Source: CBDUXP01 sp965371225 [NCBI: uncultured bacterium] (lineage in GTDB: Bacteria > Abyssobacteria > SURF-5 > CBDUXP01). Taken from it: a DNA stretch of 29,328 bases. Within the stretch, counting starts at the first letter, position 1, and each line of letters opens with the position of its first letter. Under the pieces are notes generated by a model. That model was not told the DNA's origin. It saw nothing but the letters and a program-made list of their open reading frames with translations, and searched no databases. Position numbers and translations under genes: made by a program. The stretch is taken from assembly GCA_965371225.1 (NCBI GenBank), contig CBDUXP010000050.1, positions 1 through 29,328 on the forward strand, in the 5' to 3' direction. Below, one piece after another: positions 5,157 through 27,260 of this stretch.

Positions 5157-5180
5157 CGAAAAGAAGTCGCGAGGCGACTT
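5157..5180 (-). terminator. Rho-independent terminator of fliC
   Basis: On the minus strand AAGTCGC, loop CTC and GCGACTT form a perfect 7-bp stem (5180-5164), followed by CTTTTC. The fliC stop codon TAA (5181-5179) overlaps the first two bases of the stem. The T-run is short, so some read-through into flaG is plausible. Confidence 0.65.
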
Positions 5181-6981
5181 AACCCAACAGCTGGAGCACC
5201 GTCTGCGGTATCGCATTGGCCTGCGCCAACACCGACACGCCCGCAGAGAGGAGGATCTGGTTTCGGGTGAACTCGGTGATCTCCTTGGAGATATCCACGT
5301 CCCGAATCGTCGATTCGGAGGCGGCGAGGTTCTCCGACGTGATCCGCAAGGCCTGCAGGTTCGATTCCAGCGTGTTCTTCTGGAATGCCCCCAGCGTGGC
5401 CCGCAACGAGGTCACCTCATTAATGGCCGCGTCAATCAGCCCGATGGCATCATTGGCACCCTGGGTCGACGTAATGTCGATCTCCGCCAAATTTCTGAAG
5501 TTTGACGTGTTCTGGATGCCCAAGGCCAGCGTATCCGCGCTGATGTCCCGGATCGCGATGTTCACCGTCTGGTTCGCATTCGCGCCCACCTGGAACTGCA
5601 GCGAGTTGTCTACGGCTGTCAGGCTGATGGTGGTCGCCGCCGTCGGGATATTGAAGGCCCCGAAGGTGATGTCCACCGTGCCGAGTTGCGTGCCGTTCGC
5701 ACTAGTGCCGGCGGACACGGTGTGTGTCTCGTCGGCGTCGAACCGCACAATCGACCCGCTGCCAAGCTGCACGTCAAACGTGGCGGAGGTCACCACCACA
5801 TTCAGCGTGCTGGCATCGAAGTCGCTCTGGAACGCGGCAGCGCCGACTTCCAGACTGAGCACCAGCGACCCGCCTGCCTGATCCGACAGGACGAAGGTCG
5901 CGTCCAGCGGATCCAGGTCGATGAAGTCGCCGTCGTCCAGCCGCACCCGGGCGTTCAAGCCCGAGATGTCGGTCGCCTGCGTGGCGCTGCCGGAGAACCC
6001 GAACGAGTTCGCCGTGAGCACATCCACGAAGGCGACGGTCAGCGTCTGCCCGGCCCCGAGGGAGGTGTTGGCCGAATCGATGACCACGGAGAAGGTGCCA
6101 TCGCCGTTGTTGATCGCTTGCAGCTGATCAGCCCCGAGCGTGGCCTCCGCGTCGTCATTGATCTCCGCGACCACATTCGCCACGGTGTTGCTCACGGTCG
6201 AATCGAACGTGACAACCAGCGGGCCGGAAGCGGTCGCAATCGCGAAGGTGGTACCCATCGCGATGGTCCCGATGCCGTCAAGCGTCGTCGAATCAGACGA
6301 CGACACGCGTGCGCCAGTGGCGCCCACGACGGTGATCGTATGATTCCCACTTGACAGACCATCCGGCTGTCCGGGCGGGTTCACCAAGTCGTCGTACAGC
6401 CCCACGTTGGTGGTGGGTGCTGTGGACGTAATGGTGGCCGTGGCCTGAACGATGTTTGTAATCGCCAGGTTGAAGGTCCCGGTTCGCAGGTTCGAATTTT
6501 GGAGCGCCGTGATGCCGACCAGATCCGCAGCACTGGACGTGACGACGTTCGCATTCGAGCCGTCGAGCACGGTCCGGATCCCGAACTGGGTGTTGTCCGA
6601 GATCCGCGTGATGGTCTGGATGGCGTTGGACACCTCCGCCTGGTCAGCCGCCAGCGAATTGGCATCCTGCACGCCGGAGTTGGCGGCATCCAGAGCCAGT
6701 TCGCGGATGCTGATCAAGAGGGAGTTGACCTCATTCAGCGCACCTTCCGCGGTTTGTACAAGGTTGATCGCCCGTTCCGAGTTGACAATCGCGGCGTTCA
6801 ACCCCGCAATCTGCGCACGGAGCTGCTCACTGATCGCCAATCCGGCTGGACTGTCGGCGGAGCTGTTGATCTTCAGACCTGAAGACAACCGCTGAACCGA
6901 CCGAAACAACCGATTGTCGGAGTTCGCCAGATTCCGTTGCGCGTTGATCGCGGTAATGTTGGTGTTAATACGCAAGCCCAT
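5179..6981 (-). CDS. fliC: Flagellin (filament subunit)
   Basis: The 600-residue protein has classic flagellin ends. The N-terminal D0/D1 helices (MGLRINTNITAINAQRNL, then QRLSSGLKINSSADSPAGLA, then SIRELALDAANSG) span about residues 1-140. The C-terminal D1/D0 (about 505-600) has LRATLGAFQKNTLESNL and ends in LAQANAIPQTVLQLLG. A flagellin_IN-like block, FQVGANANQTVNIAI, lies near 460-475. Residues about 150-450 are a Thr/Ser/Asn/Val-rich beta insert, the surface-exposed variable region and the likely site of any O-glycosylation. The whole protein has three lysines, one tyrosine and no cysteine or tryptophan. GGAGG (6991-6995) precedes the ATG. It has its own terminator and a sigma-28-like promoter about 300 bp upstream. 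Confidence 0.97.
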   Translation of the reverse strand: MGLRINTNITAINAQRNLANSDNRLFRSVQRLSSGLKINSSADSPAGLAISEQLRAQIAGLNAAIVNSERAINLVQTAEGALNEVNSLLISIRELALDAANSGVQDANSLAADQAEVSNAIQTITRISDNTQFGIRTVLDGSNANVVTSSAADLVGITALQNSNLRTGTFNLAITNIVQATATITSTAPTTNVGLYDDLVNPPGQPDGLSSGNHTITVVGATGARVSSSDSTTLDGIGTIAMGTTFAIATASGPLVVTFDSTVSNTVANVVAEINDDAEATLGADQLQAINNGDGTFSVVIDSANTSLGAGQTLTVAFVDVLTANSFGFSGSATQATDISGLNARVRLDDGDFIDLDPLDATFVLSDQAGGSLVLSLEVGAAAFQSDFDASTLNVVVTSATFDVQLGSGSIVRFDADETHTVSAGTSANGTQLGTVDITFGAFNIPTAATTISLTAVDNSLQFQVGANANQTVNIAIRDISADTLALGIQNTSNFRNLAEIDITSTQGANDAIGLIDAAINEVTSLRATLGAFQKNTLESNLQALRITSENLAASESTIRDVDISKEITEFTRNQILLSAGVSVLAQANAIPQTVLQLLG

Positions 6982-6987
6982 GAATTA

Positions 6988-6999
6988 CATCCTCCATGA
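6988..6999 (-). promoter_or_regulatory. fliC ribosome binding site overlapping a CsrA-like GGA motif
   Basis: The minus-strand sequence is ATGGAGGATGTA followed by ATTC and the start codon. It gives a strong Shine-Dalgarno (GGAGG) and at the same time AGGATGT, matching the core of the known CsrA/RsmA site (A-R-G-G-A-U-G-U). A bound CsrA dimer here would block ribosome entry, as at BS2 of the Bacillus subtilis hag leader. The regulation is inferred. Confidence 0.5.
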
Positions 7000-7005
7000 T
7001 GTGAA

Positions 7006-7026
7006 CCGGCGTATGGCATACGCCGG
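7006..7026. repeat. Perfect 10-bp inverted repeat in the fliC leader
   Basis: CCGGCGTATG, one G, then CATACGCCGG: a perfect palindrome with a single central base. As RNA it can fold as an 8-bp stem with a 5-nt loop just upstream of the fliC Shine-Dalgarno. As DNA it could be an operator for a dimeric regulator. Nothing in the sequence decides between these. Confidence 0.7.
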
Positions 7027-7039
7027 CCAGTGGGTTTGC

Positions 7040-7057
7040 CGCGGCATCCATGCCGCG
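7040..7057 (-). promoter_or_regulatory. fliC leader hairpin with GGA in the loop (candidate CsrA site 1)
   Basis: In the fliC mRNA sense, CGCGGC, loop AUGGAU and GCCGCG form a 6-bp GC stem with a hexaloop that presents GGA. This is the form of high-affinity CsrA/RsmA sites. The loop GGA (7047-7049) lies about 55 nt before the GGA motif over the Shine-Dalgarno, a distance one CsrA dimer might bridge. Confidence 0.5.
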
Positions 7058-7288
7058 TTGCTTCCGTGGGAAAGGCCGGAAGCCGCCCCTGCGCCCCAGA
7101 AAAGATTCGGGGGGGCGCCATGCCCGAAGCGCCGGCCTGCGCCGCTGCCACCCGGCTGCCGCCACCGCCCCTGGGCGCACGCTCCCCTCGTGGACGCGGG
7201 GTTTGGACACCCGGTTCCCGGTGGGAAGCGCACCCCTGATGGCGCGTGGCGATAACTCAACCTGACAGAGCACATAACGGCTCTATCA

Positions 7289-7315
7289 CTATCGGCATAT
7301 CGTGGGGGGCCTTTA
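7289..7315 (-). promoter_or_regulatory. Sigma-28 (FliA/SigD-type) promoter of fliC
   Basis: On the minus strand TAAA (7315-7312), exactly 15 nt, then GCCGATAG (7296-7289). This matches the enterobacterial consensus TAAA-N15-GCCGATAA at 11 of 12 positions. Predicted start near 7282 gives a leader of about 300 nt, long for a flagellin gene. The sigma factor gene is not in this window. Confidence 0.82.
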
Positions 7316-7395
7316 GCCCGGAATGCCCGCCAGACCTGGCCCTCGGCGCCGCGGGCTCTCAGAATCCTATTACTGCCAAAGGCTGTGCGGAAAGC

Positions 7396-7410
7396 TGAGG
7401 CGCGGCCTCA
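7396..7410. repeat. Inverted repeat at the -35 of the merR-like promoter
   Basis: TGAGGC, GCG, GCCTCA: a perfect 6-bp inverted repeat that overlaps the -35 element (7408-7411) of the rightward promoter. It is a possible operator for the downstream MerR-type protein or another dimeric regulator. Short repeats of this kind also arise by chance in GC-rich DNA. Confidence 0.4.
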
Positions 7411-7434
7411 AGTTTCCCCACGCGCCGCCGATAG
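7408..7434 (+). promoter_or_regulatory. Sigma-28-type promoter for the merR-like gene and glycosyltransferase operon
   Basis: TCAAGTTT (7408-7415), 11 nt, then GCCGATAG (7427-7434), against the extended consensus TAAAGTTT-N11-GCCGATAA (14 of 16 positions). Predicted start near 7441 leaves a leader of about 25 nt with GGAAAGG (7451-7457) before the GTG at 7467. It is on the opposite strand to the fliC promoter and of the same class, so both units should be read by the same flagellar sigma factor. Confidence 0.75.
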
Positions 7435-7466
7435 TTAGGGCAATCACCCCGGAAAGGCCTAGCATC

Positions 7467-7892
7467 GTGGACGAGCCGTCAACAACCCGTTACAGCATTC
7501 GCGAGGTCAGCGAGCTGACCGGTGTGCCGGCGCACACACTCCGCTTCTGGGAAAAAGCCCTTCAGCCGATGCTGCAGCCTTACAGAACCCCAGGCGGACA
7601 AAGGCGTTACGACGACGGGCACCTGTCCGTGATCCGCGAGGTACACCGCCGCGTCTCTGAGGAGCATCAGAGCCTGGCCGCGGTGCGGCACACGCTCATC
7701 CGCCGCCAGGCCGGCGCGGACGCGGGCCAGGCGCTCAGCGGGAAGTTGCTGGAAGATCCCACCATTCAGCAGGCCCTCGACGATATCGCCGAGGCGCTCA
7801 AGCTCCGGGTGTTGCGCCTGCTGGACGCCGTCCCCGCCGATGCCTCAGGCGCGGCGCCGGCAGGATCGCCGGGGCAGGAAATTTCTCTGTGA
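7467..7892 (+). CDS. Small MerR-family regulator
   Basis: The 141-residue protein has an N-terminal MerR winged helix-turn-helix: YSIREVSELTGVPAHTLRFW, then the wing YRTPGGQRRYDDGHL (about residues 10-55). A helix (VIREVHRRVSEEHQSLAAVRHTL) and a second helical stretch near 100-125 follow. There are no cysteines for metal or redox sensing and no room for a ligand domain, so the effector is unclear. I place the start at the GTG at 7467 because GGAAAGG lies 9 nt upstream and the sigma-28 promoter starts transcription near 7441; an upstream ATG at 7323 in the same frame would precede that start. It is 54 bp before the first glycosyltransferase gene with no terminator between. It may control fliC, its own operon, or both. 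Confidence 0.82.
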   Translation: MDEPSTTRYSIREVSELTGVPAHTLRFWEKALQPMLQPYRTPGGQRRYDDGHLSVIREVHRRVSEEHQSLAAVRHTLIRRQAGADAGQALSGKLLEDPTIQQALDDIAEALKLRVLRLLDAVPADASGAAPAGSPGQEISL

Positions 7893-7946
7893 TCCCTCCC
7901 ATGTGCCGGCCAACTCACCCGAGCCCCGACCCCAAGGACTAGCCCC

Positions 7947-10900
7947 ATGCCCGCCTCCCACACCCCGCCCGAACATCCTGGTCGTATCCGCTCCCGCACC
8001 GTCGCGCCGCACGAGAAGCCCGTCTCGATCGTGCCGCCCCAGGAGTTGGCGTACTACGAAGGGCAGAGTCCCGACTTCACGTTGGATCTCGTGCCCGAGT
8101 CCGCGGCGCGCGTGTTGGACGTGGGCTGCGGCCGCGGGTGGCTCGGCCGCAAGTTGAAAGAACGGGGTGCGTGTGAGGTCGTCGGGATCGAGCACTTCGC
8201 CCCCGCGGCGGACCAGGCGCGCGAGGTGCTGGACGTGGTGTACACGGGCGACGTGGAAGCCGTGGCGTTCGACTATCCGGCCGGCTACTTCGACTGCATC
8301 GTGTATTCCGGCGTGCTCGAGCACATGCGCGACCCGTGGTTCGTGTTGTACGACCATCGCGCCATGCTGGCGGACGACGGGACCGTGGTGGCGCTGCTCC
8401 CCAACGTGCAGCACTACAGCGTGCTCCTGGACCTCTTGCAGGGCCGCTGGGAATACCAGGCCTCCGGCCAGCTCGACGCGACCCACTACCGGTTCTTCAC
8501 GCGCGGCGAGATCGTGCGCATGTTTGAAGCAACCGGCTTCCGCGTGGGCACCCTGCGCGGGCACAAGTTCTGGGATACCCCCGCCGAGGTGCTGCGTATG
8601 CGGCAGGCGCTGCAGGACACCGGCCTCGCCACGCCGGAATTCCTGGCGGACTTGGAGATGTACATCTGGACGCTGCGGGTGGACAAGATCGCCGCGTGGA
8701 CGCCGCCCGAGCGGACAGTGAAGCCGGTTCGCATCGCCGGGGTCGGCACCCTGGCCCCATCCGCCGCCGCCGCACCGGCGCCCGCTCCGGCGGCGGCCGT
8801 CGCGGCCGCGACGGAGGACACGGCCGCGCCCGAGACCAGCATCATCATTGTGAGCTACAACTCCCGCGCCGACCTTGAGCCCTGCCTGGATTCCATCGCG
8901 GCCCACTCCCGCACGCGGTACGAGATCATCGTCATCGACAACGACTCGACCGACGGGACGCCGGATTGGCTGCGCGGGCGGACGGACGTGCAGTCCATCT
9001 ACAACGACTCGAACCGCGGCTATAGCGTGGCCGCGAATCAGGGGCTTCGGGAGGCGCGTGGCACGTACTGCATCCTGCTCAACCCGGACACCGTCGTGAC
9101 CGACGGGTGGGACGCGCGCCTGATCGCCCAGGCCTCGGAGCCGGCCGTCGGCGCCGTGGGTCCGGTGGCGAATGGCGCCTCCTGCTGCGGCTGGCAGCGC
9201 CTGGAAATGTGGCTGAAGGAGAAGCTGACGGGCGAGCAGCAAGTGGGGGACATCGCGCGCAAGATGGCCGCGTGGTACCCCGGCCAGAGCCGCGAGACGA
9301 AATTGCTCACCGGGTTCTGTCTGTGCGTGCCCAAGCGCGTGTTCGATGAAGTGGGCCTGCTGGATGAAGACCTGTTCATCGGCAACGATGACGTGGATTT
9401 CTCGCTGCGCCTGCAGTGGGCCGGCTACCGGTTGCTCGTGGCGCTCGACACGTTCGTCTTGCACAAGGGCATGCAGAGTTTCAAGACGCTGTCCGACGCG
9501 GTGCGGGCGCGCTACATTCAGGAAAGCACGGACGTGCTCTACGCGAAATTGGAAGCGCGCTTTGGCAAGGGCCAGGTGCCCACGTGGCCGGAACTCATCG
9601 AGCTGCCCTGGCACCTGCCCTCACAGTTTCGCGAAGACGAATTCACCGGCGAACGGGCCAATCCCCACTCGCCGAACATGCGGCAGGACATTATGGTCGA
9701 GCATTGGGCGCGGTACGAACTGGCGCAACCGTACGCCCGGGGCAAGCGCGTGCTCGACGCCGCCTGCGGGACCGGCTACGGCAGCGCGCACTTGGCGGAG
9801 GTCGCGGCGCTGGTGACCGGGTGGGACATTGACGGCGCGACCGCCGCCTACGCCCAGACCAAGGCGCCGCACGGGAACCTGCACTTTGGGGTCGGGGACG
9901 TGCGCACCCTGCCCCTGGCCGACCGGTCGTTCGACCTCATCACCAGCTTCGAGACCATCGAACACGTGGTCGAGGGCCGACAGGTGCTCGCCGAGTTCCA
10001 GCGGCTCTTGACGCCCGACGGGACGCTGCTCATCTCTACCCCCCTCGGCAGCGAAGACGGTAACCCCTACCACTTCGCCCACTACAACCGCGCCGATTTC
10101 GGTCCCATGTTGGGAGAGTTTTTCGACAGTGTGGAAATGCAATACCAGCGGGGCGGCTCGTTTAGCGAAACAACGAACGTCCCGATGGTGCTCGACCGGT
10201 TCGCCGACGAGTACGCGCTGGCCATCTGCCGCAAGCCGAAGCCGCTCAACGGCCAAGCCCGGCCCGAGGCCGACGCCGTCCAGCCCGAACCGCAGGAGGT
10301 GGAAATGCGTCACCCCAGCAACGGCACCAGCGCGCCGGTCCCCCAGCCGGTCCCCGCGCGGAACGGCGACGCCCGCGTGGCCCGGCCGACCGTCAGCGTC
10401 ATCATTCCCGTCTGGAATCAGTTGCACTACACCCAGCTGTGCGTGCAGAGCGTGCGCGAACGCACCCCGGAATCCGTGGAGTTGATCGTGGTGGATAACG
10501 GCAGCACGGACGGCACCGGCGAGTGGTTGGCCGCCCAAGCGGATGTCCACACCATCACCAATCCGGAAAATCTCGGCTTCGGCCCCGCGTGCAATCAGGG
10601 CATGGCCGCTGCCAGTGGGGACTACCTGGTCCTGCTGAACAACGACACGGTTGTGACCCCGGGCTGGACGACTCCCCTCATCGCGGCCCTCACCACGCAT
10701 TCCGAGGTGGGGCTGGTGGGCCCCTTGGCCAATCGCGTCGGCGGGTGGCAGATGGACGGCGGCTGCACGTACACCGACGACGAGGGTCTGCGGGCGCATG
10801 CCGCGGCTCGCGCCGCCGAGCGGCCGGGCGCGTGCGAGGATCTCCCCATCCTCTCCGGCTTCTGCTGGATGCTGACGCGTGCGACCTACGACCTGATCGG

Positions 10901-11864
10901 GCCGATGGACGAGCGGTTCGGTATCGGCATGTTCGAGGACAACGACTACTGCAAGCGCGTGGCCATGGCCGGCTTGCGGCTGCTTGCGGTGCACGATGTG
11001 GTGATCCACCACCAGTGCAGTGTCACCTTCCGAGCCGCCGGCATCGACTACACCGCGCAGATGGACACGAATCGCGAGGTGTTCAAACAGAAATGGGCGG
11101 ACGATGCCACGTGCCAAGGTATCGAGGCGTTCCAGGTCGGAGACTTCGACGGCGCAATCGCCCACTTCGAACGCGCGATTGCGGAGAACCCGCAGTATTC
11201 CGATCCCTACTCGAACCTGGCGGTGACCCTCGGGCGCGTGCGGCGCTGGGCGGACACGGCGCGCGTGCTCGAACAGTTGTGCGAACTCCGGCCGCTCCAC
11301 TGGCGGTCCCACCTCCAGTTGGCCAACGTGTACCATCGGCTCGAACGTCCGATGGACGCCGGCCGCCAGGTGGAGTTCCTGCTGAACCAGCCGTTCCTGC
11401 CCGACGGGGTCCGCGAGATGGTCCTCGTGCTCGCCGGCGAACTGGCCGTGTGCGTGCAGGAATGGGACACGGCGGTGAACGCGTTTCGGTCCGCCCTCAG
11501 CATTCGCGATGACGTGGCGGGCGCGTGGAACGGATTGGGCCTGGTTGCCCATCACCTGGGCCACACGGAAGAAGCGCGCACGTCCTTCGAGCGCGCCAGC
11601 ACCCTGGACGAACAGGCCGCCGATCCGCACAGCAACCTGGGCGTGTTGGCCTGGGAAGCCGGAGAGGTGGATGCCGCCCTCGGCTGCTTCACCGCGGCGC
11701 TCGATCGCGACCCACTGCACGCGGACGCGCTGGAGAACTACGTCGCGGCGGCCGTGCCCGAGGGCAAGGCGCGCGGCGCGCGGGAGCGGGTCGAAGCCGC
11801 GCTCGCGCTCCATCCCGCGTGGGAAGCGGGACAGCAGCTCCTCGCCATGTGCGAGGCCGAATAG
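7947..11864 (+). CDS. Methyltransferase-GT2-methyltransferase-GT2-TPR fusion protein
   Basis: The 1305-residue modular protein has five parts. Methyltransferase 1 (about 30-270) has SAM motif VLDVGCGRGW and FDCIVYSGVLEH. An Ala/Pro linker precedes GT2 domain 1 (about 297-540), with SIIIVSYNSR, DNDSTDGT, a metal site LLNPDTVV and a late IGNDDVDFSLR. Methyltransferase 2 (about 560-770) has VLDAACGTGYG and FDLITSFETIEHV. GT2 domain 2 (about 813-1045) has VSVIIPVWNQ, DNGSTDGT, LLNNDTVV and FEDNDYCKR. TPRs run from about 1050 to the end. Both GT2 domains use N-P/N-D where DXD is usual, as in rhamnosyltransferase-like GT2s. AAGGA (7934-7938) precedes the ATG. There is no signal or membrane segment, so it acts in the cytoplasm. 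Large GT/methyltransferase fusions beside flagellin genes (for example Pseudomonas Fgt proteins) glycosylate flagellin; that role is inferred here. Confidence 0.9.
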   Translation: MPASHTPPEHPGRIRSRTVAPHEKPVSIVPPQELAYYEGQSPDFTLDLVPESAARVLDVGCGRGWLGRKLKERGACEVVGIEHFAPAADQAREVLDVVYTGDVEAVAFDYPAGYFDCIVYSGVLEHMRDPWFVLYDHRAMLADDGTVVALLPNVQHYSVLLDLLQGRWEYQASGQLDATHYRFFTRGEIVRMFEATGFRVGTLRGHKFWDTPAEVLRMRQALQDTGLATPEFLADLEMYIWTLRVDKIAAWTPPERTVKPVRIAGVGTLAPSAAAAPAPAPAAAVAAATEDTAAPETSIIIVSYNSRADLEPCLDSIAAHSRTRYEIIVIDNDSTDGTPDWLRGRTDVQSIYNDSNRGYSVAANQGLREARGTYCILLNPDTVVTDGWDARLIAQASEPAVGAVGPVANGASCCGWQRLEMWLKEKLTGEQQVGDIARKMAAWYPGQSRETKLLTGFCLCVPKRVFDEVGLLDEDLFIGNDDVDFSLRLQWAGYRLLVALDTFVLHKGMQSFKTLSDAVRARYIQESTDVLYAKLEARFGKGQVPTWPELIELPWHLPSQFREDEFTGERANPHSPNMRQDIMVEHWARYELAQPYARGKRVLDAACGTGYGSAHLAEVAALVTGWDIDGATAAYAQTKAPHGNLHFGVGDVRTLPLADRSFDLITSFETIEHVVEGRQVLAEFQRLLTPDGTLLISTPLGSEDGNPYHFAHYNRADFGPMLGEFFDSVEMQYQRGGSFSETTNVPMVLDRFADEYALAICRKPKPLNGQARPEADAVQPEPQEVEMRHPSNGTSAPVPQPVPARNGDARVARPTVSVIIPVWNQLHYTQLCVQSVRERTPESVELIVVDNGSTDGTGEWLAAQADVHTITNPENLGFGPACNQGMAAASGDYLVLLNNDTVVTPGWTTPLIAALTTHSEVGLVGPLANRVGGWQMDGGCTYTDDEGLRAHAAARAAERPGACEDLPILSGFCWMLTRATYDLIGPMDERFGIGMFEDNDYCKRVAMAGLRLLAVHDVVIHHQCSVTFRAAGIDYTAQMDTNREVFKQKWADDATCQGIEAFQVGDFDGAIAHFERAIAENPQYSDPYSNLAVTLGRVRRWADTARVLEQLCELRPLHWRSHLQLANVYHRLERPMDAGRQVEFLLNQPFLPDGVREMVLVLAGELAVCVQEWDTAVNAFRSALSIRDDVAGAWNGLGLVAHHLGHTEEARTSFERASTLDEQAADPHSNLGVLAWEAGEVDAALGCFTAALDRDPLHADALENYVAAAVPEGKARGARERVEAALALHPAWEAGQQLLAMCEAE

Positions 11865-11898
11865 CAAGCCACCGATGCCACCCGCCAAGGAGCCCGCC

Positions 11899-14800
11899 AT
11901 GGCCGACGCCCCCCCGCTCAGCCTCTGCATGATCGTGAAGAACGAGGCCGCGTGCCTCGGGCGCTGTCTCACAAGCGTGCGCGACCTCGTCGACGAGATG
12001 GTGATCGTGGACACCGGCTCCACCGACGACACGGTCGCCATCGCGAAGTCCTTCGGGGCGCGCGTTCTGCACGAGCCCTGGACGGACGACTACAGCGCGC
12101 CGCGGAACATGAGTCTGGCCGCGGCCACGGGCCACTGGCTGCTCGTGCTCGACGCGGATGAAGTGCTCAGTCCGCAGGATCACGGTGCGATCCGCGACGC
12201 CATGACGGACGCCCGGGTGACCGGCTTTCGCATGCGCACGCGCAATTACGTGGCCGACCTCTCCATGGCCGACGCGGTGCAGAACCCGGACCCGCCGCCG
12301 GAAGGAGAAGGTTTCCCCGCCTGGGTGCCGTCGGACAAGGTCCGCCTCTTCCGCGGCGTGCCGCACGTGCGTTTCCGCGGCGCGATTCACGAAGTGGTGG
12401 ACGCCAGCATCCGCGAGGGCGGTGGCCGGATCGAATTCCTTGACGTGCCCGTGCACCACTACGGGTTCGTCGAGCAGCAGGACACGGACGGGAGCAAGCT
12501 GGCTATGCAGCGGCGCGTGGCCGAACGCAAGGTGGCGGACGCGCCGGACGACTTCAAGGCCCACTACGAGTTGGCCGTCATCCTGCACTCCGGCGGCGAG
12601 TTCGCTGAGGCCCGGGTCGTCCTGGATCGGTCGCTCCAGTTGAAGGATGACTGGGCGCTCAGCCAGTACGAACTGGGGTTCGTGTGTGAACGGTTGGAGG
12701 ATTGGGCGGAAGCGATCGCGGCCTACCACCGCACCCTCGCGTTGGATCCGACGCACCTCAGCGCGGGCCTGAACCTGGGCGTGTTGGCCCTTCGCGCCGG
12801 CCGGCAGGACGAGGCCGAACGCGTCTTGCGCGCCGTCACCGAGCACCATCCGCGGGACGCGCGGGGCTGGAACAATCTCGGTGCGGTGTTCGGTCATGTC
12901 GGCCGGGACGCCGAGGCCGAAGCGGTGTGGCGCGAAGCCCTCCGCGTGGACCCCGCCAATGCCGAGGCGCGGCAGAATCTCGACCGCCTGGCCGAGCGCG
13001 CCGCGGCCGGCCCGACCGGTCCTCGCGTGTCGCTCTGCATGATCGTGCGGGACGAGGAAGCGAACCTGCACGCGGCGGTGGCGCCCCTCGTCCCCCTCGT
13101 GCACGAGATCGTGATCGTGGATACCGGCTCCACCGACGGGACCGTCGCCTTGGCCGAATCTCTCGGCGCCCAGGTCGTGGACTTTCCCTGGTGCGACGAT
13201 TTCGCGGCAGCCCGCAACGCCGGCCTCGAACGCGCGACCGGCGACTGGATTGTCTGGCTGGACGCGGACGACCGGCTTCCGGAAACCTCGCTGTCCGCCT
13301 TGGCGTCCGCGCTGCGGCAGCCGCCGGATCACGCGGTGCAGTGGTGCATCGAATCCCAGTCGGGCGCGCGCGAGCCCGTGCGCTTCCTGCAGCTGCGGCA
13401 GTTTCCCCGACGGGCGGACGTGCGGTGGACCGGCCGGATTCACGAAGAGGTCACGTCCGCCGTGCGGGCTGCAGGCCTCCCGATAGACGCCGCTGAGAAC
13501 GTGGTGGTGGTGCACACCGGCTATCGCGATGAGGTCACTCTCCAGCGCAAGCACGAACGGAACGTGCGCCTGTTGGAATTGGCGCGCGAGGACACGCCGG
13601 ACAGTGCCACCGTCTGGCATCACCTGTCGCAGATGTACGCCCTGCTCGGCCGGCGCGACGAGGCGGTCGCGGCATGCGAACGCCTCCTGGCGATGGAGCC
13701 CCTGGACGGCGACGAACGGTACTTTGGCCTCCAGGCGCGGGTCCGGCTCGCGCAACTGGCCGTGCGCGATGAGGACACGGCGCGGGCGACGGAGGTGCTG
13801 ACCGGGGCGCTGGCGATCGTGCCGCACTATCCGCCCGCCGAATACCTTCTTGGGGAGCTGTTGTGGCAAGCGGGCGATGTGCAAGCCGCCACGCCGTACC
13901 TGCACAACGTGGCGCGCGCCCACATGCCCCTGAGTGACATCCCCCTCCCCATGCCCGCGTTGCGCGCGGGCGCGTTAAACATTCTCGGTCGCATCGCCCA
14001 GTCGGCTGGCCAGCCCGCTCAGGCGCTCGCGTTTTTCGAACAGGCGCTGGAGGAGAGTCCCCACGTCGCGGTGATCCACGCCAACCAGGCGGATGCCCTG
14101 CTGGCGCTGGGCCGCGGGCCGGACGCCCAGCGGGCGGCGCGCCGCGCGCGGGAACTGGCGCCGGACGATTTGCAGATCGCCCAACGCACGCAGGCGGCTC
14201 TCGCGTCCGCGGACGCAACCGCCGACCCGGAGGTCCTGCTGTCCCTTTGCATGATCGTGCGCGATGAGGCGGAGAATCTCCGGCAGTTGTTGCCCCAGGT
14301 CGCGGACGTGGTGGACGAACTGGTGGTCGTCGACACGGGGTCCGTGGATGACACGGTGGCCGTTGCAGAGGCGCATGGCGCGCGGGTGCTGCACACGGAG
14401 TGGGCGGACGATTTCGCCGCCGCGCGCAACACCGGCCTTGCCGAATCCCGCGGCCGCTGGGTGTTGTGGCTGGATGCGGACGATCGCGTGGAGCCCGCCC
14501 CGCTGGCGGGCCTCCGGCGGGTACTGGCCGGCATGCCGCCGCAGGCCGTGCGCTTGCCGGTGTGCTCGACCCTCGCCGGCGGCGGGGTGACGGCGCTGTC
14601 CCTGCGCGTCTTCCCGGCGGGGCACGGCGTGCGGTGGCAGGGGCGCGTACATGAAGACTTGGTCGAGTCCTGCCACGCGGCGGCATTGCCCATCGTGGAT
14701 TGCTTCGATCTGGTCATCCAGCATCTTGGCTACGCGGACCCCAAAACGCTGGCACGCAAGCTCCACCGCAATCGGCGGCTGCTGGAACTCCAACTGGCGG

Positions 14801-15819
14801 AACACCCGGACGATGTCCGGTTGGAGCTGCAACTCGCGCAGAACGAACGGGCCCTGGACGACCGGGCTGCCGCGGACGCGCGCCTGGTTCGGCTCTTGTC
14901 GAGCGGCCTGACCGATGCTCTGCGCGCCCAGGCGTTGGCGTTCCGCACCTCGCTTGCCGAAGAAACCGGTCAGCCGCAGGCGTGGCTCGAGTTGGCGCGC
15001 GCGTGGTATGAGCAGGCGCCTGACGACGCGGCCGCCCGGGTGAGTTACGCGCACGCCCTCACCCACGTGGAACAGTGGGCCGAGGCGCTCGCGGTGCTCG
15101 AGGGGATTCTCACGGACACCGTGCGGCCCGGCGCGGTGCCGGTCAACTTGGAAGCCCTCGAACGGCGCCGGCGCTACCTGCTGGGGCTCTGCTACCGCCA
15201 CGCGGGCCGGCAGGGCGATGCGTTGCGCGAACTCGCTGCGGTGCTTCACGCCAGTCCGGAAGACCCGGACGCCCTGTTCGAGACGGCGAACGTCAACTGG
15301 GACGCGGGCCAGTTCGCCGCGGCCGACGCCGGGTACGCGCGCGTCTTGGACGCGCACCCGCACTACGTACCGGCCCTGGTTCAACGCGGCAACATCGCGT
15401 TCAACCAGCAGCGGTTCGACGCGGCCGACACGTTTTACACCGCAGCGCTCGACGTGGACCCGAGTTTTCGTCCGGCGCAGGAGAACGCGTGTGCGGTTGC
15501 GATGGCCCGGGATGACCGACCGACCGCACGGGCACGCCTCGACACCGCGCTGGCCGCGTATCCGGACGCAGCGAACTTGCGCGTGTATCTCGCCGACCTC
15601 CAGTTCGCCGAAGCAGAGTACGGCCCCGCGCTGGACAGCTACCGGCGCTTTCTCACGGAACAGCCCGACGACGTGAAGGCCCTCACGCGACTCGGGGATT
15701 GCCTGCGTCTGCTGGGACATCCCGCCGAGGCGGGCCGCGCGTACGACGTGGCCCTGCACCTGGACCCCGCCTTCACCGGCGCCCGGCAGGGCCACGCGGC
15801 GCTCGCCGGGACGGCATGA
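11899..15819 (+). CDS. Triple GT2-TPR glycosyltransferase
   Basis: The 1306-residue protein is three consecutive GT2-plus-TPR modules. GT2 domains begin near residues 6, 375 and 778. Each has the same signature: SLCMIV[KR][ND]E, then VDTGS[TV]D[DG]TVA, a W-x-DD(Y/F) and RN motif, then a DAD metal site (VLDADEVL, WLDADDRL, WLDADDRV). TPR blocks lie at about 220-365, 560-770 and 960-1306. The CMIVKNE/DTGSTD signature is shared with WaaE/KdtX-like and SunS-like transferases, the latter acting on peptides. I start at the ATG at 11899 because AAGGAG lies 6 nt upstream; an in-frame ATG at 11875 would add eight residues. All three DAD sites are intact, so three active centres are likely. It follows the previous gene by 34 bp and overlaps the next by ATGA. 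Confidence 0.9.
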   Translation: MADAPPLSLCMIVKNEAACLGRCLTSVRDLVDEMVIVDTGSTDDTVAIAKSFGARVLHEPWTDDYSAPRNMSLAAATGHWLLVLDADEVLSPQDHGAIRDAMTDARVTGFRMRTRNYVADLSMADAVQNPDPPPEGEGFPAWVPSDKVRLFRGVPHVRFRGAIHEVVDASIREGGGRIEFLDVPVHHYGFVEQQDTDGSKLAMQRRVAERKVADAPDDFKAHYELAVILHSGGEFAEARVVLDRSLQLKDDWALSQYELGFVCERLEDWAEAIAAYHRTLALDPTHLSAGLNLGVLALRAGRQDEAERVLRAVTEHHPRDARGWNNLGAVFGHVGRDAEAEAVWREALRVDPANAEARQNLDRLAERAAAGPTGPRVSLCMIVRDEEANLHAAVAPLVPLVHEIVIVDTGSTDGTVALAESLGAQVVDFPWCDDFAAARNAGLERATGDWIVWLDADDRLPETSLSALASALRQPPDHAVQWCIESQSGAREPVRFLQLRQFPRRADVRWTGRIHEEVTSAVRAAGLPIDAAENVVVVHTGYRDEVTLQRKHERNVRLLELAREDTPDSATVWHHLSQMYALLGRRDEAVAACERLLAMEPLDGDERYFGLQARVRLAQLAVRDEDTARATEVLTGALAIVPHYPPAEYLLGELLWQAGDVQAATPYLHNVARAHMPLSDIPLPMPALRAGALNILGRIAQSAGQPAQALAFFEQALEESPHVAVIHANQADALLALGRGPDAQRAARRARELAPDDLQIAQRTQAALASADATADPEVLLSLCMIVRDEAENLRQLLPQVADVVDELVVVDTGSVDDTVAVAEAHGARVLHTEWADDFAAARNTGLAESRGRWVLWLDADDRVEPAPLAGLRRVLAGMPPQAVRLPVCSTLAGGGVTALSLRVFPAGHGVRWQGRVHEDLVESCHAAALPIVDCFDLVIQHLGYADPKTLARKLHRNRRLLELQLAEHPDDVRLELQLAQNERALDDRAAADARLVRLLSSGLTDALRAQALAFRTSLAEETGQPQAWLELARAWYEQAPDDAAARVSYAHALTHVEQWAEALAVLEGILTDTVRPGAVPVNLEALERRRRYLLGLCYRHAGRQGDALRELAAVLHASPEDPDALFETANVNWDAGQFAAADAGYARVLDAHPHYVPALVQRGNIAFNQQRFDAADTFYTAALDVDPSFRPAQENACAVAMARDDRPTARARLDTALAAYPDAANLRVYLADLQFAEAEYGPALDSYRRFLTEQPDDVKALTRLGDCLRLLGHPAEAGRAYDVALHLDPAFTGARQGHAALAGTA

Positions 15820-18419
15820 GTCGGAAGCGGAAGAAGCAGCGCACGCAGCGCCGCGGCCGGGCAAAGAACCGGACGGCGGCGGCACGCCTGCGGTTGAGCG
15901 CGTGTCTGATCGTGAAGGATGAAGCCGACTGTCTGGGCGACTGCCTGGCCAGCCTGCGCGGGCTGGCGGATGAGGTGGTGGTGTTGGACACGGGCTCGGC
16001 GGATGAGACGGTCGCCATCGCGCAAGCAGCCGGGGCTCGGGTCGAGCACATGGCGTGGCCGAACAGCTTCAGCACGGCGCGGAACGCGTCCCTCGAAGCG
16101 GCGACGGGAGACTGGATCCTGATTCTCGACGCGGACGAGGTCATTGCCGCCCGCGACCACGCCGCCATCCGGAGATTGCTCAGCGCGCCGCCGGACGTGT
16201 GGGGGTACATCCTCATCCAGCGCAACTACACCGCGGATCAGACCACGGCCCAGTGGCAGCGCACCGAACCCGCCTGTCCCGAAGCGCGCGGCGTGCCGGG
16301 ATGGTTCCCCGCACGGATTACGCGCCTGTTCCGCCGCGATGCGCGCATCCGGTTCGATGGCGAAGTGCACGAGGCGGTGGACGAGAGCATTCACGCGCAC
16401 GGCGGGCGAATCGAGGAGACGGCCATTTCGATCCACCATTACGGCAAGCTGCGCGATGACGACCGGATGGCGGCCAAGGCGGACCTGTATCGCACGCTTG
16501 GCGAACGCAAGCGCGCGCGCACCGGCTCGGCGGTCGCCCATTACGAACTCGGCCTGCAGTATGCGGAACTCGGCCTGCTCGACCAGGCGGAAGCGGAGCT
16601 GACGCTGGCCGTCGAGGCCGATGCGGCGCTCGTGAAGGGGTGGAGCGATCTCGGCGCAGTGATCGAGCGCCGCGACCGCGTGCCCGAGGCGGAAACGGCG
16701 TACCGTCGGGCGTTGGCTCTGGATCCCGCGTACCTGCCGGCGCTTGTCAACCTCGGCGCCGCGTTGGTCAAACTGGATCGCCCGGCGGATGCGGCCGCAG
16801 CGTTCGAAGCGGCGCGGCGGTTGAATCCCGAGAACCCGGTGATCTTGAACAACTTGGCCGCGCACCTGGCGCAGAGCGGAGATTTGCGCGGCGCGGAAGC
16901 GCTGTATCGCCAGGCGATCGCGGTCAACCCCGACTACGTGCAGGCGCACGTGAATCTGGGCAACCTGCTGGAGCGCGCCAGGCAGTACCCCGCGGCGCAG
17001 GCGCAACTGGAAGCGGCCTGCGCGCGCTTTCCACAGCACGCACCGGCCCACGCCGCGCTGGCGCTGGTGCACCTGCGGGCGCAGAACTGGACCGGGGCGG
17101 CCGAGTGTGGGGAGCGCGCGACGGCGCTCTACGACGGGGACGCGATCGTGTGGACCAACCTGGGGGTGGCGCGGTACCAGTTGGGCCAGATCGAGCCGGC
17201 GCTGGCCGCCACGTACGGCGCGGTCCAGGCGGATCCGGAGTACGCGCCCGGCGCGCGCAACTGGGAGCAACTCTCCGCGACGTATCCCGACATCGCCGCG
17301 CGCGTGACCCGCCCCGAGCCTGCGCGCATCGAGGTCGCGTCGGGACCGCACGTGGCATTCTTCCATCAGGGCGTACCCTTTACGGGCGCGACGCTGCGCG
17401 AGCGGGGGCTTGGGGGCACGGAGTCCGCGGTGGTGTACGTGGCGGAGGCGCTGGCCCGCCGGGGATGCCGGGTGACGGTGTTCAATCGCTGCGACGCCCC
17501 AGGTGACGAGCACGGCGTGCAGTATCGTCCGGTGGGTGCCTGCGCGGCCGCATTGGCCGAGGCGCCGCCCACCGCCCTGGTCGCCGTGCGCGCGTGGAGC
17601 GGGCTGGCGCTGGCGCCGGAAGGCACCCAGCGGGTGTACTGGGCGCAAGACGCGGCGGACCAGCCGGCGGTGCAGGGGCTGGCCGATCCGGCGGCGCGCG
17701 CGAACATCGATCGCTACCTGGGGATCAGCGCGTGGCAGGTGAACCTGTACGTGAAGACGTTCGGCATCGCGGAGCATTTGTGGACGCAGACGCGGAACGG
17801 GGTAGACCCGTCGCTCTTCGCAACTCCGCGGGCGGATCGCGACCGGTACAAACTCGTCTACACGAGCACGCCGTTCCGTGGGTTGGATGTGTTGCTCGAC
17901 CTGTTTCCGCGCATTCGTGCGGCCGTGCCGGAGGCGACCCTGGACCTGTACACGAGCATGGCGGTGTACGGCGTGGCCGGCGATGCGGACCGCGCGGAAT
18001 ACGGTCCGCTCTATGCCAAGGCGGATCAGCCCGGCGTGCGCCTGCTCGGCAGCGTGCCGAAGGCGGCGCTCGCCGAAGCCCTGCTCGGCGCGGGGCTGCT
18101 CGCGTATCCGAATCATTTCGCCGAGACCAGCTGCATCGCCGCGCTCGAGGCGCAGGCGGCCGGCTGTCCGGTGGTGACCAGCGCGCTGGGCGCCCTGCCG
18201 GAGACGGTGCGCCACGGGGAAGCGGGGTGGTGCCTGCCCGGTGACGCGCACAGTCCGGCGTATCAAGCGGCGTTCGTCGATGCGGTGGTGGGGTTGCTGT
18301 GCGACGAGGTGCAGTGGCAGACGTTCAGCGAGCAGGCGCGCGCGCGCGTACTGACCGAGTACGCATGGGATCGCATCGCCGGCGAGTGGCTGGACCTGTT
18401 CGCTGCGGTGGCCGTCTGA
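15816..18419 (+). CDS. GT2-TPR-GT4 bifunctional glycosyltransferase
   Basis: The 867-residue protein starts at the ATG in the ATGA overlap with the previous stop. A very basic N-terminus (MSRKRKKQRTQRRGR) is followed by a GT2 domain (about 28-215: SACLIVKDEADCL, LDTGSADETVAIA, ILDADEVIAARD). A long TPR array follows (about 225-495). The last third (about 508-867) is a GT-B fold of the GT4 type: HVAFFHQGVPF and GLGGTESAVVYVAEAL form the N-lobe. YTSTPFRGLDVLLDLFP and the donor-binding ETSCIAALEAQAAGCPVVTS form the C-lobe, with the conserved E-x7-E spacing blurred. A GT-A and a GT-B enzyme in one chain suggest two successive sugar additions. No membrane segment is visible. It overlaps the next gene by one base (TGATG). 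Confidence 0.9.
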   Translation: MSRKRKKQRTQRRGRAKNRTAAARLRLSACLIVKDEADCLGDCLASLRGLADEVVVLDTGSADETVAIAQAAGARVEHMAWPNSFSTARNASLEAATGDWILILDADEVIAARDHAAIRRLLSAPPDVWGYILIQRNYTADQTTAQWQRTEPACPEARGVPGWFPARITRLFRRDARIRFDGEVHEAVDESIHAHGGRIEETAISIHHYGKLRDDDRMAAKADLYRTLGERKRARTGSAVAHYELGLQYAELGLLDQAEAELTLAVEADAALVKGWSDLGAVIERRDRVPEAETAYRRALALDPAYLPALVNLGAALVKLDRPADAAAAFEAARRLNPENPVILNNLAAHLAQSGDLRGAEALYRQAIAVNPDYVQAHVNLGNLLERARQYPAAQAQLEAACARFPQHAPAHAALALVHLRAQNWTGAAECGERATALYDGDAIVWTNLGVARYQLGQIEPALAATYGAVQADPEYAPGARNWEQLSATYPDIAARVTRPEPARIEVASGPHVAFFHQGVPFTGATLRERGLGGTESAVVYVAEALARRGCRVTVFNRCDAPGDEHGVQYRPVGACAAALAEAPPTALVAVRAWSGLALAPEGTQRVYWAQDAADQPAVQGLADPAARANIDRYLGISAWQVNLYVKTFGIAEHLWTQTRNGVDPSLFATPRADRDRYKLVYTSTPFRGLDVLLDLFPRIRAAVPEATLDLYTSMAVYGVAGDADRAEYGPLYAKADQPGVRLLGSVPKAALAEALLGAGLLAYPNHFAETSCIAALEAQAAGCPVVTSALGALPETVRHGEAGWCLPGDAHSPAYQAAFVDAVVGLLCDEVQWQTFSEQARARVLTEYAWDRIAGEWLDLFAAVAV

Positions 18420-19732
18420 TGTCCCGCGCGCCGCTGCCCATCTCCCTGTGCATGATCGTGCGGGACGGCGCGGAGGATTTGCAGGCGTGCCTGGCGTGCG
18501 TGGCCGGTTGGTTCGCGCAGATGGTGGTGGTCGACACGGGGTCCGTGGACCAGACGGCGGCCGTCGCCCGGGCCGCGGGCGCGGCGGTGTATGACTTCGC
18601 GTGGTGCGACGATTTCAGCGCGGCACGCAACGCGGCGCTCGCCTACGCGACGCACCCGTGGATCCTGGTGCTGGATGCGGACGAGCGGCTCGACGCCGAC
18701 GCCTATGACCACTTGGCCGCGTGCCTGCGCACGGACGCGGATGCGTTCGTGGTGCCGTACAGAAGTTACACGAACCACACGAGCGGCGGGGACTGGATTC
18801 CCAATGACGGCGTGGCCCCGGAAGGGCACGGTTGGAGCGGTTGGGTCCCGGGCCGCGTGGTGCGGCTGTTCCGCAACGGGCGGGGTTACCAGTTTGCCGG
18901 TCGCGTACACGAAACCGTGGACCAGTCCCTGCACGCCGCCGATGGGGCGATCGCGGATGCGCCCTTCTGCATTCACCACCTGCAAGAGCGGCACGGGTGG
19001 GAGCACGTGGCGGCCAAGCAGCGCCGGTATCTGCAGTTGATGGAGCAGGAGATCGCCGAAGGCCGCGCGACGGCGGAGCACCTGACGAACGTTGGAATCA
19101 TTCGCCGCGAATTCTGCGACGCCGCGGCCGAAGCGGTAGCGCCGTTGCGGCAGGCGCTGGACCTCGCCCCGGCCCATCAACCGGCGTGGCGGGAATTGAT
19201 GGCGACGTACCTGACGCTGGGCCGGCATGCGGAAGCGAAGCACCTGGGCGGCCAGATGGCGGCGCGCTGGCCGGACGACCCCCTGCCGCACTATGCGCTC
19301 GGCATGGTGTGTCACCAGGCGGGCGACCTGCCGGCGGCCGAAGCGGCCTTTCAGGCAGCGCTGCGGCTGGCGCCGATGCACGTGCATGCGCGGTTGCAGC
19401 TCGCCGGGGTGCAGCTCAAGCTGGGCAAACATCAGGAGGCACGGCCGTTGCTGGAGGGGCTGCACCGTGCCTATCCCGCGCACATGGGCATTTTGCGGCA
19501 ACTCAGCGCGGCGTATGCGTGCCTTCGCCTCAATGGGGAGGCCGCGGCAACGCTGGAGCGGGCCGCCGCGGCGGTACCGCCCGACGCGGTTTTGTGGAAC
19601 AATCTAGGGGTGATACGCGCCCAAGCCGGAGATCGCACCGGTGCGGCCGCGGCGTTCCGGCAGGTGCTCGCGCTTGAGCCGAGTCATGCGGACGCCCGGC
19701 GGAATCTTGCCGCGCTGGAGCACACCGGGTGA
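18419..19732 (+). CDS. GT2-TPR glycosyltransferase
   Basis: The 437-residue protein has a GT2 domain at about residues 8-215: ISLCMIVRDGAEDLQAC, VVDTGSVDQTAAVA, WCDDFSAARN and metal site LVLDADERLDAD. A C-terminal TPR array (about 220-437) ends in LWNNLGVIRAQAGDRTGAAAAF. It is the single-module version of the triple GT2-TPR protein two genes upstream and carries the same LCMIVRD start. The ATG at 18419 shares its A with the previous TGA. The stop overlaps the GTG start of the acetyltransferase by 4 bp. Together the overlaps argue for one polycistronic mRNA with translational coupling. The sugar and acceptor are unknown. Confidence 0.9.
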   Translation: MSRAPLPISLCMIVRDGAEDLQACLACVAGWFAQMVVVDTGSVDQTAAVARAAGAAVYDFAWCDDFSAARNAALAYATHPWILVLDADERLDADAYDHLAACLRTDADAFVVPYRSYTNHTSGGDWIPNDGVAPEGHGWSGWVPGRVVRLFRNGRGYQFAGRVHETVDQSLHAADGAIADAPFCIHHLQERHGWEHVAAKQRRYLQLMEQEIAEGRATAEHLTNVGIIRREFCDAAAEAVAPLRQALDLAPAHQPAWRELMATYLTLGRHAEAKHLGGQMAARWPDDPLPHYALGMVCHQAGDLPAAEAAFQAALRLAPMHVHARLQLAGVQLKLGKHQEARPLLEGLHRAYPAHMGILRQLSAAYACLRLNGEAAATLERAAAAVPPDAVLWNNLGVIRAQAGDRTGAAAAFRQVLALEPSHADARRNLAALEHTG

Positions 19733-20844
19733 TTCGCCATGCGGTGGTGGATGGGCCCCGCGCCGTCCGCCCCGCCGAGTTCGCCGAGACGCTCGCGCTC
19801 TGCAACCGCGTCCTGCGCCCCAACGGGCCGCCGACGATTGCGGAGGAGTATCCGCTCGTGCTCGCGTCGGCGAACGCCGCGCAGCTGTGGATCATGACGC
19901 TGGACGATCGCGTCGTCAGCCACGCCGGGACGTACGCGAGCGCGATGACCCTGGACGACCGCGTGACGCTTCGGTTGGGCGGCGTAAGTTCCGTCGCCAC
20001 GGAGCCGAACGCCCGCCATCGCGGCTACGCGTCGCGTCTCGTGGAGGCGTGTTGCGCCGATCTGCAGCGGCGCGGCTGCCACTTCGCCGTGCTGTGGACT
20101 GAAGTGCACGCGTTCTACCAGCGGTTGGGCTTCGCGTTGCTCGGGGCTGAACTGCTCTATCGCTTGTCCTCCCACTCTCTGAGGAGCGGCGGTGCCGGTG
20201 CGGAAACTGCGGCCTACACGCCGGCGGACCTGGACGAAGTGGCCACCTTGCGCGCGGCGGTGCGGCCGTACACGCACCGGTCGCGCGCCGAGTGGCAGGC
20301 GCTCCTCGGCATTCCCAAAATGCAGGTGTGGGTGGCGCGTCGCGGCGGCCGGTGCGTCGCCTACATCGTGGTGGGGAAGGGCGAGGACTTTCGCAACTGT
20401 TGTCACGAGTGGGCTGGCGACGCGGACGACGTGATTCGCCTGCTGGAACACGCGGCCGTGCAGTCGCGACGCCGGGAGGTCATCCTGCTCACTCCCGATG
20501 ATGCGGGGCCGCTCAACACGACGCTGCAAGAGCGGGGGGCGCCGCACATTCGCACGGACCTGGGGATGTTCCGGTGCCTGGATCCGGTGGGTACCCTCGA
20601 CGCCGTGCGGCCGATGGTGGAACCGCGACTCGGGTGCAGCGTAGGGCTGGAGCCGGCCGGGGAGGGATGGCTGCTGCACGTGGGCGAGACCACCGTGGGC
20701 CCCATCACCACGGGCGACTTCAGCGCGCTCCTGCTCGGCCCGCGCCGCGCGACCGAGCTGCTGGACGCGCCGCCGGCGGTGTGCGCCCAACTGGAGCGCG
20801 GTCTCCCGCTACCGCTCTTTATCTGGGGCCTGGACTCGGTGTAG
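19729..20844 (+). CDS. GNAT family N-acetyltransferase, two-domain (Eis-like plan)
   Basis: The 371-residue protein has an N-terminal GNAT domain (about 1-150). The acetyl-CoA motif is VSSVATEPNARHRGYASRLV (R-x-x-G-x-A at RHRGYA), and FYQRLGFALLG is motif B. The second half (about 165-371) looks like a divergent second GNAT domain plus a C-terminal segment ending LPLPLFIWGLDSV, as in Eis-like and two-domain GNAT proteins. The GTG start sits in a GTGA overlap with the previous stop. In sugar clusters such enzymes can acylate amino sugars, but the substrate here is not determined. The 3' end overlaps the convergent miaA by 26 bp, so the two mRNAs have complementary tails. Confidence 0.82.
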   Translation: MIRHAVVDGPRAVRPAEFAETLALCNRVLRPNGPPTIAEEYPLVLASANAAQLWIMTLDDRVVSHAGTYASAMTLDDRVTLRLGGVSSVATEPNARHRGYASRLVEACCADLQRRGCHFAVLWTEVHAFYQRLGFALLGAELLYRLSSHSLRSGGAGAETAAYTPADLDEVATLRAAVRPYTHRSRAEWQALLGIPKMQVWVARRGGRCVAYIVVGKGEDFRNCCHEWAGDADDVIRLLEHAAVQSRRREVILLTPDDAGPLNTTLQERGAPHIRTDLGMFRCLDPVGTLDAVRPMVEPRLGCSVGLEPAGEGWLLHVGETTVGPITTGDFSALLLGPRRATELLDAPPAVCAQLERGLPLPLFIWGLDSV

Positions 20845-25660: not shown

Positions 25661-25662
25661 GC

Positions 25663-26583: not shown

Positions 26584-26603
26584 GGAACGGTACAGCGTGG
26601 CGG

Positions 26604-27260
26604 TCAAGCCTGCGTGGGCTGCTCCCTGTCGAAGAAACCCGGGTGCAGACCGCACTCGCGCTTGTCCAGCACCTTCGTCGGGTCAAAGTAATCGGGCTCG
26701 TTCGGCAGGTCGTGCGCGCGGAGATACGCGTCCATGTCCGCCTCCGTCCAGTCGAGCACGGGGCACACTTTCACCGGGCTGCCGGGCTCCTGCGAGACGA
26801 TGTCGAGTCCCGCGCGGAACTCCGTCTGCTCGCGGCGCAGCGCGGTCACCCACACGGTGGGCTCGAGCGCGGCCAGCCCCCGGCGGAAGGGTTCCAGCTT
26901 CACCTCCTCGGTGAACGCCGCGTGCGCGTCCAAGTCCGTCAGGTCCGGGACGGGCCCGTCCACGGCGGTCCGGTGCGCCTCGGTGCGGCGGGGACCGAAG
27001 AGGTGCACGTTCAGGCGCAGCCGCGCGATCAGGTCCGCCGCGTGCCGGTACGTGGCCGCCGTGTTGTACCCGGTATCCACCCACAAGACGGGCATGTCCG
27101 GTTGCACCTGCATGCAGAGGTGGAGGATGACGGCCTCGTGCGGCCGGAAGTTGGTCGAGACCATGGCGCGCCCGTCCGCGTGGTCCACGGCCCAGCGCAC
27201 GATCTCCACGGGTTGCTTGTGGGCGAGCGCCGCGTTCGCGGCGGCCAGTTCACTCGTCAT
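26604..27260 (-). CDS. cysH: Phosphoadenylyl-sulfate (PAPS) reductase
   Basis: CysH reduces activated sulfate to sulfite with thioredoxin. The protein is 218 residues. Motifs: [15 protein letters not shown] (PP-loop region), [42 protein letters not shown] and the catalytic ECGLHPGF near the C-terminus. It has none of the CC...CxxC cysteines that hold the [4Fe-4S] cluster of APS reductases, so it should use PAPS, consistent with the CysC domain encoded downstream. The start is the ATG at 27260, with GAAGGAGG at about 8 nt. Its first codons overlap the end of the universal stress protein gene by 11 bp. Confidence 0.93.

Follow-up and report, generated by a model that had tools for sequence, protein, structure and literature searches.

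A probable flagellin glycosylation operon with eight glycosyltransferase domains, next to fliC in an uncultured bacterium

Our analysis concerns a stretch of 29,328 nucleotides (positions 1 to 29,328 of contig CBDUXP010000050.1) from an uncultured bacterium, called the window below, and within it a run of five plus-strand genes, g1 to g5 (7947-20844), that lies close to a flagellin gene and is a candidate flagellin glycosylation operon. None of the five has an internal stop. Their Pfam matches, with E-values far beyond chance, amount to seven family 2 glycosyltransferase (GT2) domains, one family 4 glycosyltransferase (GT4) domain, two methyltransferase (MT) domains, one GNAT domain and many tetratricopeptide repeats (TPRs), which is the very inventory given in the original prediction, made from the letters of this DNA. 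In order, g1 (7947-11864, 1305 amino acids) has the architecture MT-GT2-MT-GT2-TPR; g2 (11899-15819, 1306 amino acids) has three GT2 domains (PF00535, three stretches), with TPRs after each one; g3 (15816-18419, 867 amino acids) combines a GT2 domain of the type found in SunS and GmaR with TPRs and the GT4 domain; g4 (18419-19732, 437 amino acids) is a minimal module, one SunS/GmaR-type GT2 domain followed by TPRs; and g5 (19729-20844, 371 amino acids, GTG start) encodes a GNAT-type protein (Acetyltransf_9, 1.6e-17).

The five genes had been described as nearly all coupled by overlaps. This is true of three of the four junctions (4 bp between g2 and g3, 1 bp between g3 and g4, 4 bp between g4 and g5), but g1 and g2 are separated by a gap of 34 bp, which would shrink to 10 bp if g2 used the alternative ATG at 11875 and not the one at 11899, which has AAGGAG before it. 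The co-directional run also starts earlier than had been thought, at a previously overlooked gene for a MerR-type regulator of 141 amino acids (7467-7892, plus strand), likely the first of the operon. Its GTG start at 7467, preceded by GGAAAGG, fits better than a start at 7323, and its match to MerR_1 (7.8e-14) was obtained on the longer open reading frame (7323-7892).

Apart from this regulator gene, nothing stands between g1-g4 and fliC, an adjacency of glycosyltransferase and flagellin genes by which glycosylation islands are recognized. The fliC gene (5179-6981, minus strand) encodes a flagellin of 600 amino acids (Flagellin_N, 2.8e-29; Flagellin_C, 3e-22; Pfam), the likely acceptor, and has flaG, fliD and fliS behind it on the same strand. 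The abundance of Ser and Thr in the core of this flagellin had been taken as a clue to glycosylation. It is not one, since their fraction (0.230) equals that of FliC in E. coli K-12 (0.234).

The sequence between fliC and the regulator gene provides a further connection between them. We scored sites against TAAAGTTT-N11-GCCGATAA, which we take to be the E. coli sigma28 consensus. The best match, absent from the original prediction, lies on the plus strand at 7408-7434 (TCAAGTTT-N11-GCCGATAG), has two mismatches and ends 32 nt ahead of the start of the MerR-type gene. Neither strand of the window has another match with at most three mismatches. At least one match at this level was found in 5 of 100 shuffles, and 300 random first-order sequences had a mean of 0.003 such matches each, and none with at most two mismatches. 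The second best match of the window, with four mismatches, is on the minus strand ahead of fliC (7289-7315). At that level 0.23 matches are expected per window; a looser pattern, TAAA-N13,17-GCCGATA, occurs a single time in the window, at this same site, and in 0 of 100 shuffles. The two best sigma28-type matches are inverted copies of each other, with 73% agreement over 33 nt. From these matches, fliC and the operon are probably transcribed divergently by means of one shared sigma factor. A search of 6950-8000 gave neither a sigma70-type promoter nor a terminator. The region has two other features: the spacers of both sites contain CCCCACG (7288-7435), as if one site had been copied from the other, and the start codon of fliC comes only about 300 nt after its promoter match (6982-7288), which makes for a long leader.

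Five GT2 domains, those encoded by g2, g3 and g4, form one family with 33-48% mutual identity, and the one in g4 is 33-43% identical to those of g2 and g3. TPR matches aside, the solved structures closest to g2 and g3 in a sequence search are GmaR and SunS, with E-values for GmaR (chain 22ao) of 1.4e-23 with g2 and 8.3e-21 with g3. The SunS profile TIGR04195 gives 169.4 bits over three stretches of g2 and 38.9 bits with g4, below its curated cut-off of 350. For g4 we obtained a model from the window's own modules; its mean predicted local distance difference test (pLDDT) score is 90, and it has the TPR domain behind the glycosyltransferase domain. The modelled fold matches that of SunS (7msp_B; Z 23.3, root-mean-square deviation 3.6 over 272 residues), tied with a match to the TPR domain of O-GlcNAc transferase (Z 22.8). 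GmaR is not among the fold matches listed for g4, perhaps as a result of the April 2026 end date of the library, and its absence is no argument against kinship. By their sequences, the five domains belong to the SunS/GmaR family. This agrees with the earlier proposal that TPR-linked GT2 domains are cytoplasmic glycosyltransferases acting on protein. SunS itself is an S-glycosyltransferase. Since FliC, which has 61.5 kDa as translated, contains no cysteine, Ser and Thr are the likely acceptor residues.

The domains of g1 alternate between methyl and glycosyl transfer. A first MT domain (8076-8546; Methyltransf_23, amino acids 44-200), with 3cc8 as solved relative (1.3e-38), precedes a GT2 domain with the motif NPDT (8835-9548, about amino acids 297-534). 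They are followed by a second MT domain (9735-10181; Methyltransf_11, amino acids 603-696, limits widened by eye) and a second GT2 domain, with the motif NNDT (10386-11105, about amino acids 814-1053). The acid motif of GT-A enzymes is thus kept in all seven GT2 domains, in the form LDAD in the five of g2 to g4. The g1 pair shares 38% identity and resembles the other five only weakly or over short stretches (42 bits at best); judged on sequence, these two domains are of another type than those of g2 to g4. The alternation suggests that g1 might provide the chain with two methylated sugars.

We think it likely that this operon encodes a cytoplasmic, sigma28-timed system for the O-glycosylation of flagellin with a methylated sugar chain. 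The direct basis for this is provided by the domains, the gene layout, the promoter matches, the family membership, the fold and the recurrence of similar sets beside flagellin genes elsewhere. From these we infer how the operon is transcribed, its acceptor, the order of the steps, the sugars, the targets of methylation and the role of the GNAT protein. In the mechanism that we propose, sigma28 would transcribe fliC in one direction and merR-g1-g2-g3-g4-g5 in the other, so that the enzymes would appear along with their substrate. The TPR superhelices of g2, g3 and g4 would grip flagellin monomers in the cytoplasm, where the SunS/GmaR-type domains would attach the first sugar to Ser or Thr, and perhaps more sugars. 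The chain would be extended by g1, with its MT-GT2-MT-GT2 series, and by the GT4 domain of g3, and g1 would methylate the glycan before export through the flagellar secretion system. The sugar donors would be supplied from elsewhere in the genome.

Similar sets of genes are found beside flagellin genes in other bacteria. Our survey covered 249 genomes from the phylum of a Paenibacillus, which we call Bacillota on the basis of the genome at the centre of the sample (G002), the source of a Paenibacillus prosopidis locus. The GT2-TPR family is present in 103 of these genomes and a flagellin gene in 208. From 150 listed GT2 matches in 73 of the 103 matching genomes, with at most 12 candidates scored per genome, we built 99 clusters. 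After 32 clusters without a listed flagellin gene had been dropped, 67 in 47 genomes could be scored. Among the matches listed, 20 of these 67 clusters start within 4.6 kb of the start of a flagellin gene, when 0.5 would be expected under uniform placement in genomes of 3 Mb. The flagellin positions used were the listed matches and two extra rows for G002, and excluding this genome the count is 19 of 64. A g1-like protein occurs in 11 of the 20 flagellin-linked genomes, and in 7 of the 20 it is encoded no more than 10 kb from that flagellin gene. At one locus (L083) the gene of an MT-GT2-GT4-GT2 fusion is divergent from that of flagellin, like in the window, and a separate GmaR-like gene is nearby. 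Another (L085) has an MT domain with a GT4 and three GT2 domains, and here too flagellin and a GmaR-like gene of its own are close by. At a third (L075), which belongs to the 20 but not to the 7, a single MT-GT2-GT2-TPR protein adjoins flagellin. These loci suggest that a GT2-TPR protein and an MT/GT2 fusion beside flagellin are a recurring combination. The prediction of a flagellin link thus gains support from three sides, the sigma28-type match on the operon, the SunS/GmaR-type modules and the similar sets in Bacillota, and that of methylation by fusions of glycosyltransferases and methyltransferases is also supported.

Several observations weigh against our interpretation. The GT2 family is not confined to flagellin loci: of the 67 scorable clusters, 47 have no listed flagellin gene within 10 kb, and flagellin-linked and other members are intermingled in a tree of 63 GT2 domains. 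For these two reasons the family alone does not prove the acceptor, and it is the position of the operon and its promoter match that do most of the work in favour of flagellin. The Aeromonas relative of the g3 GT2 domain lies far from the flagellin genes on its record. As originally stated, no nucleotide-sugar synthesis gene was detected among the window genes scanned with Pfam. Nor was a close relative of the operon found in a scan of genome contigs with g1, which returned three distant loci only, and the distant g1-like proteins encoded on plasmids sit in clusters of the polysaccharide type. As for the remainder of the tree, the second and third GT2 domains of g2 group with a Planctomyces domain, and the first one pairs with that of g3, with g4 close by at weaker support and the long-branched Aeromonas domain among them. 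No tblastn match to the window flagellin was found within 18 kb on either side of the relatives of the g3 GT4 domain in Azospirillum, Niveispirillum and Methylobacterium.

The plasmid clusters, which include rfbABCD, capsule or ABC export genes, would fit an operon that makes or decorates a surface polysaccharide (lipopolysaccharide, capsule or exopolysaccharide) and came to lie beside fliC by chance or by genomic insertion. We find this quite unlikely. Against it speak the sigma28-type promoter match on the operon, its TPR modules of the SunS/GmaR type and the similar gene combinations beside flagellin genes in Bacillota. Moreover, no lipid-linked initiating transferase, flippase, polymerase or ABC exporter scored above cut-off among the window genes scanned; a match to Wzy_C_2 inside the TPR part of g2 is below cut-off.

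The enzymes might also glycosylate another secreted or surface protein, or several proteins including flagellin. In Bacillota the SunS/GmaR-type GT2-TPR family also occurs in arrays of three genes that recur at a distance from the listed flagellin genes (L071, 5517-10748; L072, 5790-12241; L073, 7447-12663; and L074). Ten flanking proteins were scanned at the first three, and two of these three loci, L071 and L073, have proteins with FG-GAP repeats and DUF6385 near the array; the two flanking proteins scanned at L072 have neither. It is possible that such arrays are a second protein-glycosylation system. Outside the arrays, the gene of a SunS-like glycosyltransferase adjoins that of a collagen-like protein on a Bacillus velezensis plasmid record (L025, 9998-13228). 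These cases give some substance to a wider range of acceptors, but the operon in the window has fliC, flaG, fliD and fliS as neighbours, with no other surface protein gene adjacent, and its promoter match is of the flagellar type. We thus regard an acceptor other than flagellin alone as unlikely.

A different role could be assigned to the MerR-type gene, which lies ahead of g1 on the same strand, downstream of the sigma28-type site, and whose product has a DNA-binding part that matches that of CarH. GmaR of Listeria monocytogenes is also the antirepressor of MogR, and the glycosyltransferase modules of the window match GmaR. The MerR-type protein and one of the TPR-glycosyltransferases might accordingly form a repressor/antirepressor pair that couples flagellin expression to glycosylation. 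This seems very unlikely to us: MogR is not known to be of the MerR type; an antirepressor domain in g2 to g4 was neither sought nor shown; and no binding site is established, the repeats seen being the promoter pair and short repeats only. Just as improbable is a bolder version, a self-regulating assembly line in which the order of the modules would set the order of sugars and methyl groups, and the MerR-type protein would sense the condition of the machinery by way of one TPR-glycosyltransferase and allow fliC expression only in the presence of the enzymes that glycosylate its product, in what would be a second, independently evolved coupling of the GmaR/MogR kind.

According to the original prediction, the glycan could also be acylated, a step that would fall to the GNAT protein g5. 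In a profile search g5 matches 2ozg (4.6e-13) and, more weakly, Eis2. Its relatives occur in 18 of the 249 Bacillota genomes, and in none of the six scorable ones do they lie near a flagellin gene. A role of g5 as sugar acylase is thus not supported, even if its gene overlaps g4 by 4 bp. Folded alone, g5 gave a poor model (pLDDT 38), which was not used.

The 3' end of the run faces miaA, mutL, cysNC and cysD on the minus strand, with g5 and miaA convergent and overlapping by 26 bp at their ends (20819-20844). Further along that strand, cysNC, cysD and genes for a universal stress domain and a sodium:sulfate symporter follow in series (23687-29328). No sulfotransferase was found among the proteins scanned, and the window CysD is 76% identical to one from Acinetobacter among the records of a plasmid collection, at most a hint of Gammaproteobacteria. 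At the other end of the window, beyond fliS, genes for a sigma factor of the extracytoplasmic function (ECF) type and a zf-HC2 protein (1-973) are likely a sigma/anti-sigma pair. Between the ECF gene and fliS, a plus-strand open reading frame of 206 amino acids with a GTG start (1159-1779) has no Pfam match and the look of a real protein.

If our interpretation is right, eight glycosyltransferase domains encoded in five genes would build a methylated glycan on the filament protein, with the transferases gathered in one flagellar operon. This would make it a compact system in which to ask how the order of modules encodes the sequence of a glycan. In addition, the glycosylation of flagellin in the manner of GmaR would extend to a genome of about 60-72% GC that is probably not from Bacillota.

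We compared the operon with systems described in the literature, on the basis of excerpts of the cited papers. GmaR transfers N-acetylglucosamine (GlcNAc) to flagellin (PMC9638930). In the Listeria locus the gene of a GT2 protein of 637 amino acids lies between the mot/che and flagellin genes. Like GmaR, g2 to g4 have related GT2 domains with TPRs behind them and are encoded in a flagellar region. Unlike Listeria, with one GT2 domain per protein, the window has five of them in three proteins, together with the MT/GT2 fusion and a GT4 domain. SunS and ThuS, the peptide S-glycosyltransferases, resemble the fold of g4 and the sequences of g2 to g4, but the window proteins score below the TIGR04195 cut-off and their likely acceptor has no cysteine. 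FlmG of Caulobacter binds flagellins with its TPR domain (PMC7591256). The window modules likewise link TPRs to a glycosyltransferase domain, in the opposite order: FlmG has its TPRs first and a GT-B-type domain behind, whereas in the window the SunS-like domain comes first.

A further comparison is with the locus of type B in Clostridioides difficile. There, GT1 adds GlcNAc, and two rhamnoses are added by GT2, which also carries an MT domain; sequential addition was concluded from mutants, and methylation was proposed for the GT2 enzyme (PMC5207246). Compared by domain make-up only, both loci have an initiating GT2-family enzyme and an extending one with MT domains beside fliC. The C. difficile locus differs by its biosynthesis genes and by making a sulfonated peptidyl-amido sugar, and the window, relative to that account, by its eight glycosyltransferase domains in four proteins, its GT4 domain and its MerR-type gene. 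The islands of Enterobacteriaceae have one to three glycosyltransferases, of a single family per island, with MT domains on most GT41 enzymes and on one GT2 enzyme (PMC4875605), and those of Geobacillus have up to five, of families GT2 and GT4 (PMC5109656). The window shares with both the position beside fliC, with the former the fusions to MT domains and with the latter the combination of GT2 and GT4. Many of these islands carry sugar-synthesis genes, a hallmark that is absent among the window genes scanned, next to eight glycosyltransferase domains in four proteins. Such genes are not required, and in most islands of the rhamnose type rmlB lies elsewhere in the genome (PMC4875605).

In Clostridium sporogenes, GT2-TPR proteins encoded among flagellin genes were predicted to be transferases unlike Maf (PMC13317340). 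The window goes beyond that prediction by the MT/GT2 fusion, the GT4 domain and the sigma28-type promoter match of the operon. Among the Pfam matches listed for g1 to g5 there is no Maf family. In the open-licence literature, this domain set with a sigma28-type promoter is not described in the titles and beginnings of abstracts that were searched. As far as these searches go, what is new relative to the literature compared is the assembly of eight glycosyltransferase domains, five being of the SunS/GmaR type, in four proteins with a MerR-type gene and a sigma28-type match. Fusions of glycosyltransferases and methyltransferases in flagellin islands were already known, and the operon would be an exceptionally large example of an established class of flagellin glycosylation systems.

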